A DNA stretch of 64,000 nt from Salinigranum marinum (GTDB lineage: Archaea > Halobacteriota > Halobacteria > Halobacteriales > Haloferacaceae): assembly GCF_024228675.1 (NCBI RefSeq), contig NZ_CP100461.1:1178001-1242000 (forward strand). The letters are read 5' to 3'. Below are positions 3,612 to 30,417 of the stretch, in pieces; the first letter of the stretch is position 1; the number at the start of each line of letters is the position of its first letter. Below the pieces are notes generated by a model. The model did not search any database. It saw only the letters and a program-made list of their open reading frames with translations, and was not told the DNA's origin. The position numbers and the translations under genes were made by a program.

Positions 3612-4811
3612 TCAACCCTCGTGTGGCTCGCCCCCCGGGCGAACCTCGTCCGTCGTTCCGGGCAGCCGTCCGACGGCCGAGAGCGCGACGAGCATCACGA
3701 CGACGACCGCGAGCCCCGCGGCGAACGCGCGAAACACCGTGTCGAAAGCGTAGCCCGCCTCCGTGAGCACCCCTACGGCACCGCTGCCGTTGGCCTCGAC
3801 GAGGAGCGAGAGCCCGCTGAAGACGGCGTAGGTGCTCCCGCGGGCGTCGGCGGGGAGCGCGCCGAGGACGTAGGTGTCGAGGGCGGGGAAGAGGCTGTGG
3901 ATCACGTAGCCGACGAGGAGCGAGACGGCGACGAGGCCGGCGAGGTCCTGCACGACGGTGAGCGCGAGGACGCCCGTGGTGAACGCGACGAGTAGCCCGA
4001 CGATGTACGGGACGTGCGGGAGGCGGTCGGCGAGGCGGCCGCCGAGCCAGAAGGCGGGGACGCCGGCAGCGAACGTGATCGTGAGGAGCGTACTCGCGGT
4101 CGCCGTGTCGAGGGCCTTCACGGTCGTGAGATACGAGACGTAGAAGTTGAACAGCCCCTGCCAGACGAACCCCGCGGTGGCGATCATGAGGATCCCGGTG
4201 CCGATCACGCGCCAGTGGCCGAGCGCGGCGCGGAAGTTCCGGTCGGCCCCCGCGTCCGCCGGGACACCCTCTCCCCGGGTCGCGACGACGAGGACGCCCG
4301 TCACCAGCAGGCTCCCGCCCGCGAGGAGCCAGAACACCGCCCGCCAGGAGGCAGTCGCGAGGACGACCACGACGACCGTCGGGGCGACGACTGCGGCCAC
4401 CTGGGCGGACATGCCGTGGACGCCGACCGCGCGCCCGACGCCCTCGGGGAAGAGGTCGCCGATGAGCGGGACCGCGGTGGCGAAGTACGTGCCCGAGGCG
4501 AGGCCGATCAGGAGCGACCCGGCCTGGAGCGCACGGACGGAGTCGGCCCCGGCGGTGAAGGCGGCCGCGGCCGCTAGGACGACCCCCGAGACGACGACGA
4601 CCCGGTGGCGGGCGACGCGCGTCAGGAGGTAGCCGACGGGGAAGCGGACGGCTCCGGTCCCGAGCCAGACGAGCGAGGCGACGACGCCGACCGTGGCGGG
4701 GCCGACGCCGAACGCCGTCTGCAACTCGGGCAACAGCGGCGCGAACGCGGTCCGCCCGAAGTTGACGAGGAAGACGAGACCGAGGAGGGAGCCGAAGAGG
4801 CGGCGGGTCAC
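3612..4811 (-). CDS. Major facilitator superfamily transporter, 399 aa
   Basis: About twelve hydrophobic helices occupy nearly the whole length, with the MFS loop 2-3 region (GYLLTRVARHRVVVVSG) around residues 60-76 and a long central loop near residues 180-195. The GTG at 4811 is chosen because the first transmembrane helix (LLGLVFLVNFG) starts a few residues later. The frame stays open far upstream only because it is antisense to nnr. Substrate unknown. The small membrane-protein gene at 3189-3605 follows directly. Confidence 0.9.
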   Translation of the reverse strand: MTRRLFGSLLGLVFLVNFGRTAFAPLLPELQTAFGVGPATVGVVASLVWLGTGAVRFPVGYLLTRVARHRVVVVSGVVLAAAAAFTAGADSVRALQAGSLLIGLASGTYFATAVPLIGDLFPEGVGRAVGVHGMSAQVAAVVAPTVVVVVLATASWRAVFWLLAGGSLLVTGVLVVATRGEGVPADAGADRNFRAALGHWRVIGTGILMIATAGFVWQGLFNFYVSYLTTVKALDTATASTLLTITFAAGVPAFWLGGRLADRLPHVPYIVGLLVAFTTGVLALTVVQDLAGLVAVSLLVGYVIHSLFPALDTYVLGALPADARGSTYAVFSGLSLLVEANGSGAVGVLTEAGYAFDTVFRAFAAGLAVVVVMLVALSAVGRLPGTTDEVRPGGEPHEG

Positions 4812-4956: not shown

Positions 4957-6408
4957 ATGATCTCCGCGAGACGGATGGCGGCCGTCGACGCCAACGCAGC
5001 CGCGCTCGGCGTGCCACGCAAGCAACTGATGGAGTCGAGCGGGAACGCGGTCGCCCGCGTCGTCCGCGAGGTGGCCGACGCCGAACGCGACGGCGACTCC
5101 CGGGTAGCGATCGTCGCCGGCCGGGGGAACAACGGGGGCGACGCCTTGGTCGCCGCGCGCTTTCTCGACGCGTTCGACACGCGGGTCGTCCTCCTCGGCC
5201 GGCCCGAGACGATCACGACCGACATCGCCCGGGAGAACTGGGCGGCGCTTGTCGACGCCGAGTACGACACCCACGTCGTCGGCGACTCCCGCGAGCTCGA
5301 CCTCCGCGAGCCGGACGTGATCGTCGACGCGATGCTCGGGACGGGCGTCACGGGCGCGCTCCGCGAACCGGAGGCGACCGCGGCGGCGGCGATCAACGCG
5401 GCCGAGGCGACCGTCGTGGCGGTCGACATCCCCTCCGGCGTCGACGCCGACACCGGCGAGTTCGAGGGAGAAGCCGTCGACGCCGACCACGTCGTCACGT
5501 TCCACGACGAGAAGCCGGGGCTCTCCGCCTTGGACGCGACCGTCCACGTCGCGGACATCGGGATCCCCGAGGCGGCCGAGTCGTTCGTCGGCCCCGGTGA
5601 CCTCCTCTCGCTGGGTCGCGACCCACAGTCACACAAGGGCGACCACGGCGAGGTGCTCGTCGTCGGCGGCGGGCCGTACGCGGGTGCCCCCGCGCTGGCC
5701 GCGGGCGCGGCCCTCCGGGCGGGCGCGGACCTCGTCCGCGTCGCCTGTCCCCGCGCCGTCGCCCACGAGATCCAGGGGTACAGCGAGAACCTCATCCTCG
5801 TGCCGTTCGAGGGCGAGACGCTCGCGCCGGGACACGTCGACGCGCTGCTCGAACGGGCGGCCGACCACGACGCAGTCGTCTTCGGCCCCGGGCTCGGGTC
5901 GGCGGACGAAACCCTCGCGGCCGTTCGTGCGTTCCTCACGGGGTACGAGGGCCGGGCGGTCGTCGACGCCGACGCGTTGCAGGTCGTCCCCGAGGTGGAG
6001 ACCGAGGCGACGCTCGTCTGTACGCCACACCAGGGGGAGTTACGGAAGATGGGCGGCACCACCGCCGAGGCGTGGCGCGAGCGCCGGACGCTCGTCGCGG
6101 AGTTCGCGGGCGACCTCGGCCACACGCTCTTGGTGAAAGGCGCGTACGACGTCGTCGCCGACCCACACGAGACGAGAGTGAACCGGACCGGGAACCCGGG
6201 GATGACGGTCGGCGGCACCGGCGACGTCCTCGCGGGCGTCACGGGCGCGCTCTGCTGTACGCAGGACCCGCTCGACGCGGCGGCCGTCGCGGCGTACGTG
6301 AACGGTCGCGCGGGCGACATCGCCGTCGACGAACGCGGCTTCGGCCTCGTCGCCACCGACCTCCTCGATCGGCTCCCCGCGGCGCTGTGGGGTGAGCGCG
6401 ATGAGTGA
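4957..6408 (+). CDS. nnr: Bifunctional NAD(P)H-hydrate epimerase / ADP-dependent dehydratase
   Basis: Repairs damaged NAD(P)H hydrates: the N-terminal YjeF_N domain (about residues 1-215) epimerises them and the C-terminal ribokinase-like domain (about 220-478) dehydrates them using ADP. Visible motifs are GRGNNGGD at 55-62, VDIPSGVDADTG in the epimerase half, then SHKGDHGEVLVVGG, GPGLG, CTPHQGEL and the nucleotide-site TGGTGD near residue 417. The 483-residue length suits the fused form. It overlaps moaC by 8 bases, indicating translational coupling. Confidence 0.95.
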   Translation: MISARRMAAVDANAAALGVPRKQLMESSGNAVARVVREVADAERDGDSRVAIVAGRGNNGGDALVAARFLDAFDTRVVLLGRPETITTDIARENWAALVDAEYDTHVVGDSRELDLREPDVIVDAMLGTGVTGALREPEATAAAAINAAEATVVAVDIPSGVDADTGEFEGEAVDADHVVTFHDEKPGLSALDATVHVADIGIPEAAESFVGPGDLLSLGRDPQSHKGDHGEVLVVGGGPYAGAPALAAGAALRAGADLVRVACPRAVAHEIQGYSENLILVPFEGETLAPGHVDALLERAADHDAVVFGPGLGSADETLAAVRAFLTGYEGRAVVDADALQVVPEVETEATLVCTPHQGELRKMGGTTAEAWRERRTLVAEFAGDLGHTLLVKGAYDVVADPHETRVNRTGNPGMTVGGTGDVLAGVTGALCCTQDPLDAAAVAAYVNGRAGDIAVDERGFGLVATDLLDRLPAALWGERDE

Positions 6409-6928
6409 CACCGGCGAGACGCCCCCGAGCGAAGACCCCAGGGAGACCGAAGCGAGCGACGAACTCACCCACACCGACGAGGAGGGGAACGTCCAGATGG
6501 TCGACGTCGGCGCGAAGCCCGACTCCGATCGTCGCGCGGTCGCCCGCGGCACCATCCACCTCCAGGCGTCGACGGTCGACGCGATCCGCGCCGACGACAT
6601 CGGCAAGGGCGACGTGCTCGCCACCGCCCGCGTCGGCGCGGTGCAGGCGGTGAAACACACGTGGGAGACGATCCCGATGTGCCATGGGATCCCGATCACG
6701 AACGTCGAAACCGACTTCGACCTCGGCGACGACCGGGTCGTGCTCACGGTGGCGGTCGAGACGACGGGCAAGACGGGCTGTGAGATGGAGGCGCTCGAAG
6801 GCGTGACGACGGGGCTGAACGTCGTCTGGGACATGGTGAAGGCGGCCGAGAAGAACGAGTCGGGACAGTACCCCGACACGCGGATCACGGACGTCCACGT
6901 CCTCGAAAAGGAGAAAGAACGGGTCTGA
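6401..6928 (+). CDS. moaC: Cyclic pyranopterin monophosphate synthase (molybdenum cofactor biosynthesis)
   Basis: Second step of molybdenum-cofactor synthesis, converting the MoaA product to cPMP. After an acidic N-terminal extension, the family signatures follow: MVDVGAKPDSDRRAVARG, KHTWETIPMCHGIP and TGCEMEALEGVTTGL. The family core is complete. The motif usually read as CHPIP or similar has Gly here. The ATG at 6401 is preferred over a GTG at 6392; the gene overlaps the end of nnr. No other Mo-cofactor gene is nearby. Confidence 0.95.
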   Translation: MSDTGETPPSEDPRETEASDELTHTDEEGNVQMVDVGAKPDSDRRAVARGTIHLQASTVDAIRADDIGKGDVLATARVGAVQAVKHTWETIPMCHGIPITNVETDFDLGDDRVVLTVAVETTGKTGCEMEALEGVTTGLNVVWDMVKAAEKNESGQYPDTRITDVHVLEKEKERV

Positions 6929-6953: not shown

Positions 6954-7034
6954 ATACGGTCTGTTGTCACCGGTTACCGGTCGTCGACGCCCCGGGGGCG
7001 GCGACAGACGGCGCTGACTGACGACAGACCGTAT
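6954..7034. repeat. Imperfect 15-bp inverted repeat between moaC and the next gene
   Basis: The left arm at 6954-6968 (ATACGGTCTGTTGTC) pairs with the right arm at 7020-7034 (GACGACAGACCGTAT) at 14 of 15 positions, with 51 bases between. The interval itself holds smaller palindromes (ACCGGTTACCGGT and CGCCCCGGGGGCG). It could be a paired operator upstream of the gene at 7082, an RNA structure in the moaC 3' end, or a remnant. No choice can be made from sequence alone. Confidence 0.6.
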
Positions 7035-7081: not shown

Positions 7082-7963
7082 ATGCGAGTGCTCGTCGCGG
7101 GTGCGACCGGGTTCGTGGGGTCCCGTTTAGTCCACGCGTTGGCCGACCGAGGACACGACGTCGTGGCCTTCTCCCGGAGCGCGAGCGAGACCACGTTCCC
7201 CGACGGCGTCGAACCGTTCGAGGGTGATCTCGGCGACCCCGGCTCGCTCGGTGGGCTCTGTGCGGGCGTCGATGTCGCGTACTACCTGATCCACTCGCTC
7301 ACCGCCGAGAACTTCGCCGGGCAGGACCGGCGGTACGCACGCCGGTTCCGCGAGGCGGCGTCGGGGGCCGGCGTCGACCGGGTGGTCTACCTGAGCGGAA
7401 TCAGCGGCGACGAGACGGATCTGTCGCCACATCTGGCATCGCGGCGGGAGGTCGAGTCCGTCCTCTCGGCCGGTGCGTTCGACCTGACCGTCCTTCGGGC
7501 GGCGATCATCATCGGTCCCGAGAGCGCGAGCTTCCGCATCGTCGACGATCTGACCGACCGCCTGCCGGTGATGGTCGTCCCCGAGTGGGTCCGGACGCCG
7601 TGTCAACCCATCGGCGTCGACGACACCGTCGCGTATCTCGTCGGCCTCCTCGGCGTCGACGAGACCCGTGGGGAGACGTACGACATCGGGGGGCCGTCGG
7701 TGTGGTCGTACGAGTCGCTGCTCGAACTGACCGCCGCCGAGAAGGGCAGACGGGTAGTTATCCTCCCCGTCCCGGTGATGACGCCGGAACTGTCCTCGCA
7801 CTAGCTCCGGTTCACGACCGACGTCCAGTACGCCATCGCCCGGCCGCTGGTCGAGAGCATGCGTCATCCGGTGACGGTGAGCGACGAGATGGACCTCCAG
7901 CGCGTCGTCCCCATCGAGCGGACGCCGATCGACGATGCGGTGCGACGGGCGCTCTCCGCGTGA
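7082..7963 (+). pseudogene. NAD-dependent epimerase/NAD(P)H-binding protein interrupted by in-frame TAG
   Basis: The N-terminal Rossmann motif GATGFVG (residues 7-13) and the SDR-like pattern (VVYLSGISGD, LRAAIIIGP) mark an atypical short-chain dehydrogenase family protein. Reading stops at a TAG at 7802-7804 after 240 codons. The same frame then continues as coding-like sequence for 52 more codons (LRFTTDVQYAIARPLVESM onwards) to a TGA at 7961-7963. The sequence around the TAG looks like a family segment where a Trp codon (TGG) would fit. This is either a recent nonsense mutation, a sequencing error, or a functional shorter protein. Confidence 0.75.
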
Positions 7964-7968
7964 GTCGC

Positions 7969-8382
7969 TCAGGCCGTCTCGACAGGAATCGTGTACCCCC
8001 GACGCAGCGGGTCGAGGTGGGCACGTGCGTCGTCGTCGAGCGGGAACGTCCCGTGGATGTCGGCGGGTTCGCGGCCGTGGACCGCGCGTCCGAACGGGGC
8101 CGCGACCGTCGGGTACGCCCGGGTGAGAAACCGCACCACGGGGCCCGAGATCCCCCGGCGCCGGAGCAACCGTTCGACCGTGTCGCCACCGACGTGGACG
8201 CTGTCGCCCTCGACGAGGACGAACGCGAACGGCCGCGATCCGAACTGGGCGTCGAGGAAGGCCTGGATCTCGGCGGTCTGCCACGGCACGGTGAGGACGT
8301 CCGACGAATACCGCGTGGCCGCCTCGGCGGCGGTTCGGAACAGGGCGTTGCTGCCGTCATAGACGAGGAGCGAACGGGTCAC
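7969..8382 (-). CDS. Hypothetical protein, 137 aa; degenerate DCC (DUF393)-like fold suspected
   Basis: The start LLVYDGSNALFRTAA resembles the DCC-family signature (YDGxCxxC), but both cysteines are replaced (S and F). The rest (VHVGGDTVERLLRRRG, then a helical C-terminus) also fits that family's layout. If related, it has lost the thiol-disulfide active site. It is convergent with the interrupted epimerase gene and ends 6 bases after it. The function and family call are tentative. Confidence 0.65.
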   Translation of the reverse strand: MTRSLLVYDGSNALFRTAAEAATRYSSDVLTVPWQTAEIQAFLDAQFGSRPFAFVLVEGDSVHVGGDTVERLLRRRGISGPVVRFLTRAYPTVAAPFGRAVHGREPADIHGTFPLDDDARAHLDPLRRGYTIPVETA

Positions 8383-8426: not shown

Positions 8427-9728
8427 TCAGGCCGACTCGACCGTGGCCAGGTCGCCCGCCTTCGCCCGTGCCTTCGAGACGACGGCGGGGCGCGCCTCGA
8501 ACTCCAGGGTGACGGAGTCGCCGTCGTACTCCTCGCGTTCGACGTGGCCGTGGTCGTGGACCCACGAGACGAGGCTCATCGTGTCGTCCGTCATCGGGAG
8601 GAGCAGGCGCTCGCGCTGCCAGTCGGGGAGTTCGGCCTCGATCCGGTCGGTGAGTTCGCCGATGTTCTCGCCCGTCAGTCCCGAGACGACGATGGGGTTC
8701 GGCGCGAGCGCCGAGAGGGCACGTTTCTTCTCCTCAAGTTCGCTCTCGTCGACCTTGTCGATCTTGTTCAACACGGTGACGATGGGGGCCTCATTGCGCT
8801 CGTACAGCGTGTCGTGACAGGTGACGAGCTTCTCGCGCATCTCTTCTGTGGACTCGGAGGCGTCGACGACGAGGAGGACGAGGTCGGCTCGATAGACGGA
8901 ATCGAGGGTGGACTTGAACGACTCGACGAGCCAGTGCGGCAGGTCGGAGATGAAGCCGACCGTATCGGTGAGCAGGACGTCCCTGGTTCCCGTCTCGGCG
9001 CGACGAGTCGTCGTGCCGAGGGTGGTGAACAGGCGGTCCTCGGACTCCGCCGTCGGGTCCAGGTCGGGGTGGAGGTCGTCGTTCTCGTCGACCGCGAGGT
9101 CCGCGGCGAGTTGACGCATCAGCGTCGACTTCCCCGCGTTCGTGTAGCCCGCGAGCGCCACGAGGTCGAAGCCGGACTCGCGGCGTTCCTCCCGGCGGGT
9201 CTCTTCTTTCTCCGCGATGGCGTCGAGTTCCCGCTTGATGCGGGCGATCTGCGCCTTGATGTCCTGTTCGCGGCTCTCGTCGTACTCGCCGAGTCCCATG
9301 AAGCCGGGGCGCTCGTCGCGTTTCGCGAGCGACGCTTTCGCCTCCGCGCGCGGGAGTTCGTACCGCAACTCGGCCAGTTCGACCTGCAATTGTGCCTTCT
9401 TCGTCTGGGCGCGCTGGCCGAAGATGTCGAGAATCAGCGTAAAACGGTCGACGACCTCGGCGTCACCCGGGAGTTTCGCCCCGACGTTGTACGTCTGGTA
9501 CGGGCCGATCCGGTTGTCGACGACCACCGCGTCGGCGTCGGTCTCGGCGACGAGCGCCGCGAGTTCCTCGACTTTGCCCTCGCCGAACATGAACGCCGCG
9601 TCCTCCTCGCGCGTCTGCGTGAGTTCGCCCACGACCTCGTAGCCGGCCGCACGGGCGAGATCCCTGATCTCCGAGAGGTCGGCCGTTCCGGCATCGACGC
9701 GCTTGGCGACGATCGTGCTACGGCTCAT
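8427..9728 (-). CDS. hflX: GTPase HflX
   Basis: Ribosome-associated TRAFAC GTPase. The N-terminal HflX domain contains the glycine-rich GPYQTYNVGAKLPGD region, then a coiled-coil-like linker. The G domain shows G1 GYTNAGKS (about residue 197), G2 TLGTTTRR, G3 DTVGFI, G4 NKID and a G5-like SGLTG. The 433-residue length is normal. The HflX family splits or rescues ribosomes under stress. Monocistronic, with ATG at 9728. Confidence 0.95.
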   Translation of the reverse strand: MSRSTIVAKRVDAGTADLSEIRDLARAAGYEVVGELTQTREEDAAFMFGEGKVEELAALVAETDADAVVVDNRIGPYQTYNVGAKLPGDAEVVDRFTLILDIFGQRAQTKKAQLQVELAELRYELPRAEAKASLAKRDERPGFMGLGEYDESREQDIKAQIARIKRELDAIAEKEETRREERRESGFDLVALAGYTNAGKSTLMRQLAADLAVDENDDLHPDLDPTAESEDRLFTTLGTTTRRAETGTRDVLLTDTVGFISDLPHWLVESFKSTLDSVYRADLVLLVVDASESTEEMREKLVTCHDTLYERNEAPIVTVLNKIDKVDESELEEKKRALSALAPNPIVVSGLTGENIGELTDRIEAELPDWQRERLLLPMTDDTMSLVSWVHDHGHVEREEYDGDSVTLEFEARPAVVSKARAKAGDLATVESA

Positions 9729-11538: not shown

Positions 11539-11688
11539 ATGCTCTCCCCCGAGAACGCGACGTTCCACATCGTCTGTCGGGACTGTGCGTTCGAGTCGCT
11601 GGAGTCGGACTCGACCGCCGCCCGGCGTCTGGCGGACGAACACGCGGCGACCGCGGATCACTCGACACAGTACGCCCGGATCCAGTAA
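11539..11688 (+). CDS. Small protein with one CxxC pair, 49 aa
   Basis: Begins at ATG 11539 (MLSPENATFHIVCRDCAFE) and ends at TAA 11688. One C-x2-C pair and a His-rich helix (RRLADEHAATADHS) suggest a small metal-binding or zinc-ribbon-like protein of the type frequent in haloarchaea. An AT-richer segment upstream (around 11505-11515, CGTACTTATCAC) could be its promoter. Function unknown. Convergent with trxA. Confidence 0.65.
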   Translation: MLSPENATFHIVCRDCAFESLESDSTAARRLADEHAATADHSTQYARIQ

Positions 11689-11698
11689 CGTCTTTTCC

Positions 11699-11732
11699 GT
11701 TCCGGTTACGACTTCGGAGTTCCGGTTACGAC
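11699..11732. repeat. 14-bp direct repeat at the 3' end of trxA
   Basis: GTTCCGGTTACGAC occurs at 11699-11712 and again at 11719-11732. The second copy contains the stop codon and last codons of trxA read on the minus strand; the first lies just beyond it, in the convergent intergenic gap. It looks like a short local duplication. Confidence 0.7.
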
Positions 11733-12058
11733 AGTTCCGCGATGACGTCGAGCAGGTCGCCTTTATCCTGGACGCCGATGAGTCGCTTCGCCTGCTCGCC
11801 GCCCGCGTAGAACTGCAGCGTCGGAACGCTCCGGACGCCGGCGTCGCGCGCGAGGTCCTGGAGTTCGTCGATATCGACCTTCAGCACTGCGGCCTCGGAG
11901 TCGGCGGCGATCTCCTCGATCGTCGGTTCGAGCATCTTGCACGGCCCACACCAGTCGGCGTGGAAGTCGACGAGGACGACGTCGTGTTCGGCGACGAGTT
12001 CGTCGAGGTGCTCTTTGCTCTGTACGTGGATGGGTTCGCCGGGCTGTGCGGTGCTCAT
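11726..12058 (-). CDS. trxA: Thioredoxin, 110 aa
   Basis: Classical thioredoxin with active site WCGPC and the cis-proline region (SVPTLQFYAGG). It reduces protein disulfides in the cytoplasm. The N-terminal 20 residues are a short acidic extension. A CTTAAGA TATA-like element lies about 28 bases upstream of the ATG at 12058. The gene for the reductase at 12127 is upstream on the same strand with a 68-base gap. Confidence 0.95.
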   Translation of the reverse strand: MSTAQPGEPIHVQSKEHLDELVAEHDVVLVDFHADWCGPCKMLEPTIEEIAADSEAAVLKVDIDELQDLARDAGVRSVPTLQFYAGGEQAKRLIGVQDKGDLLDVIAELS

Positions 12059-12126
12059 GCGTGCACGTACCGGTGGCACAGTCTTAAGAGTTGAGACGGT
12101 TTGCCGCGCGACCGCACATCCGGGGC

Positions 12127-27350: not shown

Positions 27351-27641
27351 ATGACAGAACCCAAGCCCGAGGACATGGACCTCGACGAACTCCGCACAGA
27401 GATCGAAGACATCGACCGCGAGATCGTCGAACTCGTCGCCCGCCGAACGTACGTGGCCGACACGATCGCCGACGTGAAAGCCGAACGCGACCTGCCCACG
27501 ACCGACGAGTCCCAAGAAGAGCGCGTGATGGAACGCGCTGCGCAGAACGCAGAACGGTTCGAGGTGGACGCAAACCTCGTGAAGGCCGTCTTCCGGTTGC
27601 TGATCGAACTGAATAAGGCGGAGCAACGGCGGAGTCGGTAG
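27351..27641 (+). CDS. aroQ: Chorismate mutase (AroQ type), 96 aa
   Basis: All-helical AroQ fold: MDLDELRTEIEDIDREIVEL with the conserved Arg, then ARRTYVADTIADVKAER (catalytic Arg/Lys region) and a final helix with LVKAVFRLLIELNKAEQ. It converts chorismate to prephenate, the substrate of TyrA at 39162. Probably co-transcribed with aroK. Confidence 0.95.
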   Translation: MTEPKPEDMDLDELRTEIEDIDREIVELVARRTYVADTIADVKAERDLPTTDESQEERVMERAAQNAERFEVDANLVKAVFRLLIELNKAEQRRSR

Positions 27642-28958: not shown

Positions 28959-29525
28959 TCACCCGGCGAGTGCGGCCTGAACCCGGTCGTCGGCCAGCGA
29001 GTCGATCGAGCGTGGCGGATCGGGCGCGGCAGCCTCGGGAAGCCGGAGCCGCCACCAGCCGACGTCGTGCCAGTCGCCGTCTTTGTAGCCGACGTCGTCG
29101 AAGACGCCGACGCGGTCGAAGCCGAGCGCCTCGTGGAGGGCGACGCTGGCGGGGTTCGGCAGGGTGATCACGCCGTACGCGTTCGCGTACCCCTGGGCCG
29201 TCAGGAGGGTGAGCAACGCCTCGTACAGCCGGCGGCCGACGCCCTCGTGCTGGGCGGTCGCGTCGACGTACACGGAGAGTTCGGTTGACCAGCGGTAGGC
29301 GTCGCGCTCGCGGAGCGCCCCGGCGTACGCGTAGCCGGCCACGCCGTCGTCGCGCTCGCAGACGAGCCACGGGAACTGTTCGAGCGTCTTCGAGAGCTTC
29401 GTCTCGAGCGTCGCGACCGACGGGACCGTCGTCGCGAACGAGACGGCCGTCTCCTCGACGTAGGGCGCGTAGATGCGCCGGATCCCGGGTGCGTCAGCCG
29501 GCGTCGCCATCCGGAGGCAGTCCAT
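28959..29525 (-). CDS. GNAT-family N-acetyltransferase (phosphinothricin acetyltransferase-like), 188 aa
   Basis: Starts with the PAT-like pattern LRMATPADAPGIRRIYAPYVEE. The acetyl-CoA site is HEGVGRRLYEALLTLL (Q/R-x-x-G-x-G/A variant EGVGRR), followed by NPASVALHEALGFDRVGVF. The substrate is unknown; in this subfamily small amino acid-like amines are typical. ATG at 29525. Divergent from the winged-helix regulator. Confidence 0.9.
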   Translation of the reverse strand: MDCLRMATPADAPGIRRIYAPYVEETAVSFATTVPSVATLETKLSKTLEQFPWLVCERDDGVAGYAYAGALRERDAYRWSTELSVYVDATAQHEGVGRRLYEALLTLLTAQGYANAYGVITLPNPASVALHEALGFDRVGVFDDVGYKDGDWHDVGWWRLRLPEAAAPDPPRSIDSLADDRVQAALAG

Positions 29526-29591
29526 GAGCCGACGCCGCAACCCGAGGCAGTAAGTCCAGTGGTTCGGTGGCGGACGCCGACGCCGGGAGAG

Positions 29592-29600
29592 AGTATATAT
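29592..29600 (+). promoter_or_regulatory. TATA box of the winged-helix regulator gene
   Basis: AGTATATAT ends 22 bases before the ATG at 29623. With start of transcription about 25 bases downstream, the mRNA would be leaderless. Confidence 0.75.
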
Positions 29601-29622
29601 CACACCTCGTGAATGTCTGTGT

Positions 29623-30417
29623 ATGACGCCACCGTTCGACGAGATCGCCTTCCTCACGCGATCGCCGAATCGGGTTGCGGTGTTGGGGGCGCTCGCCGAG
29701 GGGCGGTACTCCCGCCGGGAACTCGTCGACGAGACGCCCGCCTCGCGCGTGACGGTCGGCCGGATCCTGCACGACTTCGGGGAGCGCGGATGGGTGCGAA
29801 ACAGCGGTGAGGGGTACGAAGCGACGACACGGGGCCGACTGCTCGCCCAGGAGCTGCTGTCGGTTCTCGACCGGCTCCGGGCGATCGACCGGCTCGATCC
29901 GGTGTTACCGTGGTTCCCGATCGACCGGCTCGACGTCCCGCTGTCGGCGTTCGGCGACGCGGACGTGACCGTCCCCACCACGGCCGAGCCGAACCGTCAC
30001 CACCGACGGATCGGAACCGTCGGTGGGATCGCCGACCACGCCCGGATGTACTCCCAGGGGGCGACGAAGGAGGCGATCGACATCCACCGGTCGGCGATCC
30101 GGAACCGTGGACAACGGCTCGAACTCGTCCTCACCCGCCCCGCGCTCGACGCCATCGCGGCGGACGATCAACTCCGTGCCGAGTTCCGCACGCTCGCGGC
30201 GGCGGCCGCGTTCGTCGGCACGGTCGAGCGAGAACTGTCGCTCCCGTTCGTCGCCCTGTTCGACGGGCGCTGTTTTCTCGGGGCCGTCACCGACAGCGGT
30301 GCGCCGGCGGGCGTCGTCGAGTCCGACGACGACGCTCTCGTCGCCTGGACGCAGCGGACGCTCGACGAGATCCGGGCAGCGGCGGTGCCACTGGACCTCG
30401 ACGCGTTCACGGCGTGA
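29623..30417 (+). CDS. Winged-helix transcriptional regulator (FilR1/DUF1724-type), 264 aa
   Basis: The N-terminal winged helix (residues 1-80) shows the pattern FLTRSPNRVAVLGALAEG...RRELVDETPASRVTVGRILHDF. A C-terminal sensor-like domain of about 150 residues matches the FilR1 (methanogenesis regulatory) architecture common in haloarchaea. Ligand and target are unknown. The large surface-protein gene begins 111 bases after its stop, so it could be a target, which is inference. Confidence 0.85.
   Translation: MTPPFDEIAFLTRSPNRVAVLGALAEGRYSRRELVDETPASRVTVGRILHDFGERGWVRNSGEGYEATTRGRLLAQELLSVLDRLRAIDRLDPVLPWFPIDRLDVPLSAFGDADVTVPTTAEPNRHHRRIGTVGGIADHARMYSQGATKEAIDIHRSAIRNRGQRLELVLTRPALDAIAADDQLRAEFRTLAAAAAFVGTVERELSLPFVALFDGRCFLGAVTDSGAPAGVVESDDDALVAWTQRTLDEIRAAAVPLDLDAFTA

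Follow-up and report, generated by a model that had tools for sequence, protein, structure and literature searches.

Does an in-frame TAG in a gene of the haloarchaeon Salinigranum marinum mark the natural end of a protein, an error in the assembly, or a gene that has just been lost? The window analysed here is a stretch of 64,000 nucleotides (assembly GCF_024228675.1, contig NZ_CP100461.1, positions 1,178,001 to 1,242,000, forward strand). Within it, an open reading frame (ORF) starts with ATG at 7082 and meets a TAG at 7802-7804 after 240 codons. Past the TAG, the same frame stays open for 52 codons until a TGA at 7961-7963. The initial annotation had located this ORF, its stop and the open codons exactly, and had proposed a young pseudogene, an assembly error or a naturally truncated protein. 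The young pseudogene is the best fit of the three in view of the conserved tryptophan, the conserved tail and a syntenic orthologue in S. salinum. Probably, the gene is dispensable and has recently suffered a nonsense mutation, which would make it an incipient pseudogene.

The main evidence comes from the homologues. Tryptophan stands at codon 241 in each of the 45 relatives whose codons were read one by one, and these are full-length frames of 293-312 amino acids with the tail. After the removal of eight exact duplicates, 37 distinct relatives remain, again all with tryptophan at this codon. The set consists of 15 of the 26 loci of a first collection, 29 loci from a class-wide search and a copy on contig C3 of the window's own genome. 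Loci L030 to L040 were omitted; of these, L030 was read at codon 241 and has the tryptophan. The closest comparison is the S. salinum orthologue (293 amino acids, 88% identical), which carries a tryptophan codon where the window has TAG and matches 45 of the 52 tail residues. It is also syntenic, with moaC ahead of it and, behind it, a convergent homologue of the 137-amino-acid gene that follows in the window. The alignment with full-length homologues, suggested earlier as a check, therefore strongly supports a single TGG-to-TAG change. The class-wide search covered 391 genomes, 294 of which had a match at an E value of 1e-60 or better. Among the matches listed, which stand for 150 places (more exist), the window gene is the only one with an internal stop, and the alignments reach residue 289 or beyond in all 150. 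This speaks against a naturally short family ending near residue 240, the outcome that was to disprove the proposal. What defines a nonsense pseudogene, a stop interrupting a frame that the orthologues have conserved intact, is found here. The locus is laid out as follows.

7082-7804, plus strand: truncated ORF (240 amino acids) with a predicted Rossmann NAD(P)H-binding core, of the NmrA/NAD_binding_10 type of atypical short-chain dehydrogenases/reductases (SDRs), from Pfam
7802-7804, plus strand: in-frame TAG where all aligned relatives have a tryptophan codon, from alignments
7805-7963, plus strand: 52 codons and TGA, the family's conserved C-terminal end, untranslated if the TAG terminates, from alignments
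6392-6928, plus strand: moaC, upstream neighbour, from Pfam MoaC; gene order the same in S. salinum
7969-8382, minus strand: convergent gene of 137 amino acids, without Pfam or NCBIfam match
8427-9728, minus strand: HflX-like GTPase, flank marker

The length of the open frame behind the stop was part of the original argument, together with its composition. Both carry little weight. Of the 57 window ORFs with relatives in three genomes of the genus, 34 have a frame that stays open for 52 codons or more beyond the stop; a subset of 45 ORFs chosen by eye from the 57, in which at least one probably real gene (2006-2425) was omitted, gave 25. Because such frames are so frequent, the open frame is weak evidence. 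By these counts, it amounts to no more than chance, and the excess over chance lies in the homology. Where haloarchaeal DNA is GC-rich, a long open frame past a stop proves nothing alone, and homologues are required.

Homologous continuation is the more telling feature. Nine of the 57 ORFs could be tested for it, and five continue in frame past their stop with homology: the 7082 gene and four others, all on the plus strand (1507-1761, 4014-4577, 11585-12094 and 29067-29288). The four are antisense to other reading frames, namely an MFS and a thioredoxin gene (both with strong Pfam matches), a minus-strand frame open over 900-2060 and the minus-strand ORF 28959-29981, which by eye looks like an acetyltransferase, without a family assignment. 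The 7082 gene is the sole one of the five read in the coding sense. A looser screen with the three relatives flagged 19 queries including the 7082 gene; seven of the other 18 were aligned and, on visual inspection, were taken for antisense ORFs or ORFs extended too far.

By predicted family only, the gene product belongs with the atypical SDR-like NAD(P)H-binding proteins. The 240-amino-acid part matches PF13460 NAD_binding_10 (E 8e-17; 62 bits against a cut-off of 27.2), PF05368 NmrA (E 9e-13) and PF01370 Epimerase (E 2e-12). The Pfam-matched NAD(P)H-binding part covers residues 7-155 and lies entirely upstream of the stop. Its N-terminus has the glycine-rich nucleotide-binding pattern of a Rossmann-type domain, with G7, G10 and G13 invariant in 18 sequences. 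Among the NCBIfam models listed for this part, none reached its curated cut-off, and the tail alone found no match in Pfam. Against the PDB, the S. salinum orthologue matched 34 distinct sequences, including NDUFA9 subunits and one NmrA-family protein, and the best stretches all end at or before residue 236 of 293. The likeness to the NmrA/NAD_binding_10 atypical SDRs, NDUFA9-like by sequence search, consists of the glycine-rich start and the three Pfam families. The difference is that the window copy stops ahead of a conserved C-terminal stretch. In the haloarchaeal subfamily this stretch spans about residues 237-293; it is present in the window DNA but lies behind the TAG, so the 240-amino-acid product does not comprise it.

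The proposed course of events is simple. The codon of the invariant tryptophan 241 in a 293-amino-acid atypical SDR/NmrA-like protein would recently have become an amber stop. Provided that the cell really has this stop and that ribosomes terminate at it, the product would end at residue 240; the Rossmann core would be left, the 53 conserved C-terminal residues would be missing, and this shortened protein may well be inactive or unstable. The genus seems able to do without the gene, and contig C3 retains an intact relative, which is probably why the loss is tolerated. Indeed, a close copy is absent from two of four genus genomes (G001 and G002), which have only relatives of about 52% identity. 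In G001, an empty stretch of about 140 bases separates moaC from hflX; in G002, the interval between these two genes yielded no copy. The intact copy on C3 encodes 294 amino acids with 78% identity and, in the tree, stands apart from the window and S. salinum rows, among copies of several families. Moreover, contig C2 holds a 3' remnant from this gene family with a broken frame (L174 4813-5087, at about 430.8-431.1 kb); it has kept the tryptophan, and a transposase gene is about 0.7 kb away. Because of the missing close copies, the intact C3 copy and the decayed C2 fragment, the gene looks dispensable.

Such an event would most likely be an ordinary gene inactivation of a kind already known, not an unusual reading of the genetic code. 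Point mutations that create a stop are listed among the ordinary ways in which haloarchaeal genes are inactivated (PMC4500146), and a further report gives 337 and 314 pseudogenes for the two Haloquadratum walsbyi genomes (PMC3119063). The window gene is the same in principle as haloarchaeal genes broken by a sense-to-stop point mutation and differs in showing a single defect without further decay. Among the papers listed on the Salinigranum genome, nothing on the 7082 gene turned up. The consequence is mainly one for annotation, in which the gene should carry a mark of disruption (or the base be verified) and should not be entered as a 240-amino-acid protein.

Judged by the 37 distinct relatives, the window copy keeps all 110 invariant positions in the body and all 19 in the tail. 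It has four private residues in the body and none in the tail, compared with seven and two in S. salinum. In nonsynonymous divergence (dN) to 36 outgroups, the window copy is farther than S. salinum for four over the whole gene and for two over the body. Several observations count against the recent nonsense mutation, or at least lend it no support. For the tail, the same comparison is split (19 of 36) and gives no sign either way. The ratio of dN to synonymous divergence (dS) against S. salinum is 0.13 in the body and 0.27 in the tail, with few changes, and the difference is not significant (Fisher p 0.32). No relaxed selection is visible in either part. The AlphaFold model has a mean predicted local distance difference test (pLDDT) score of 56.7 and, with residues 201-293 below 50, is too weak to judge the lost part. 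The only visible defect is the TAG, which is equally compatible with a single base error. As nothing else is visibly damaged, the stop is either very recent or a wrong base. A crude bound, with half of the pairwise dS taken as the branch, gives from the absence of change at the 129 invariant codons a neutral phase of at most about 4% of the branch, to be read as an order of magnitude only.

A base-call or assembly error is the main rival to the nonsense mutation, if a rather improbable one. The cell would then have the full 293-amino-acid gene, with one base of the codon wrong in the assembly, and the constraint found in body and tail alike is what a working gene would show. However, the assembly consists of four contigs with 99.87% completeness, and finished assemblies seldom contain isolated substitution errors. 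Among the ORFs tested, there was also no other gene that, read in its coding sense, continues in frame and with homology past its stop, as noted above for the five candidates. Less probable still, and on the whole unlikely, is a real stop behind which the 240-amino-acid protein goes on working as a natural C-terminal truncation. The position of the NAD(P)H-binding part ahead of the stop would allow this, as would the unrelaxed body. Nevertheless, the protein would have to do without the invariant tryptophan and a stretch with 19 residues invariant in the 37 distinct relatives, and no truncated homologue occurs among the matches listed.

Reading through the UAG, by means of pyrrolysine, a suppressor tRNA or programmed readthrough, would likewise yield a full-length protein and fit the intact tail. 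According to a review, UAG recoding exists in some archaea, and selenocysteine and pyrrolysine are the cases for which it describes readthrough of stop codons in archaea (PMC8211752). In the present genome, readthrough is very unlikely. PylS is not found over its cut-off; the two weak matches score 24 and 22 bits against 178, and in control searches 13 of 14 genomes gave some match and one exceeded the cut-off. The tRNA search returned 49 RF00005 matches, with anticodons called by ARAGORN, and no CUA anticodon is among the tRNAs found, which do not include tRNA-Trp or a Pro(cgg) tRNA. The sole match that ARAGORN left uncalled (L166) becomes an intron-containing tRNA-Asp(gtc) under the intron option, a doubtful call. 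Recoding of UAG as pyrrolysine would be expected to go with avoidance of TAG as an ordinary terminator, which is not seen in the window: six of the ten other TAG-ended ORFs with relatives end exactly at the relative's end. For instance, 27351-27641 is 97% identical over all 96 residues and flush with its relative. Furthermore, the relatives of the 7082 gene carry tryptophan at this position, not TAG. Pyrrolysine or suppressor decoding was rejected on the grounds of PylS, the anticodons found (tRNA-Trp being unrecovered) and the ordinary termination at TAG. The slightest chance of all is given to production of the full-length protein from a codon that is restored in the RNA or decoded by a mutant tRNA-Trp. 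If true, it would account for the unrelaxed tail; the part of the archaeal recoding literature at hand offered no such mechanism.

The tRNA search brought two further observations. Six tRNA genes (Arg tcg, Glu ttc, Met, Tyr gta, Thr cgt and Gln ttg) lie within about 2 kb at L173 4750-6816 (C1, about 280.7-282.8 kb) and duplicate isoacceptors present elsewhere in the genome. From the tRNA genes alone, this cluster looks provirus-like. On the 437-kb contig C2, a tRNA-Ser(gga) (L151, C2:254392-254475) is a second copy besides one on C1.

As for the neighbours of the 7082 gene, the 137-amino-acid gene on the opposite strand has its stop codon from 7969 and is therefore convergent with it. Its S. 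salinum homologue, 64% identical, adjoins the orthologue there too. No match to it was found between moaC and hflX in G001 or G002. On the other side, between moaC and the 7082 gene, the window holds a repeat of about 80 bp (6954-7034) with 16-nt terminal inverted repeats that are 94% complementary. It is not at the corresponding place in S. salinum. Matches to it number none in G001, four in G003, nine in G002 and 12 in the window's genome, some of the latter being one place on both strands. The repeat resembles a miniature inverted-repeat transposable element (MITE).
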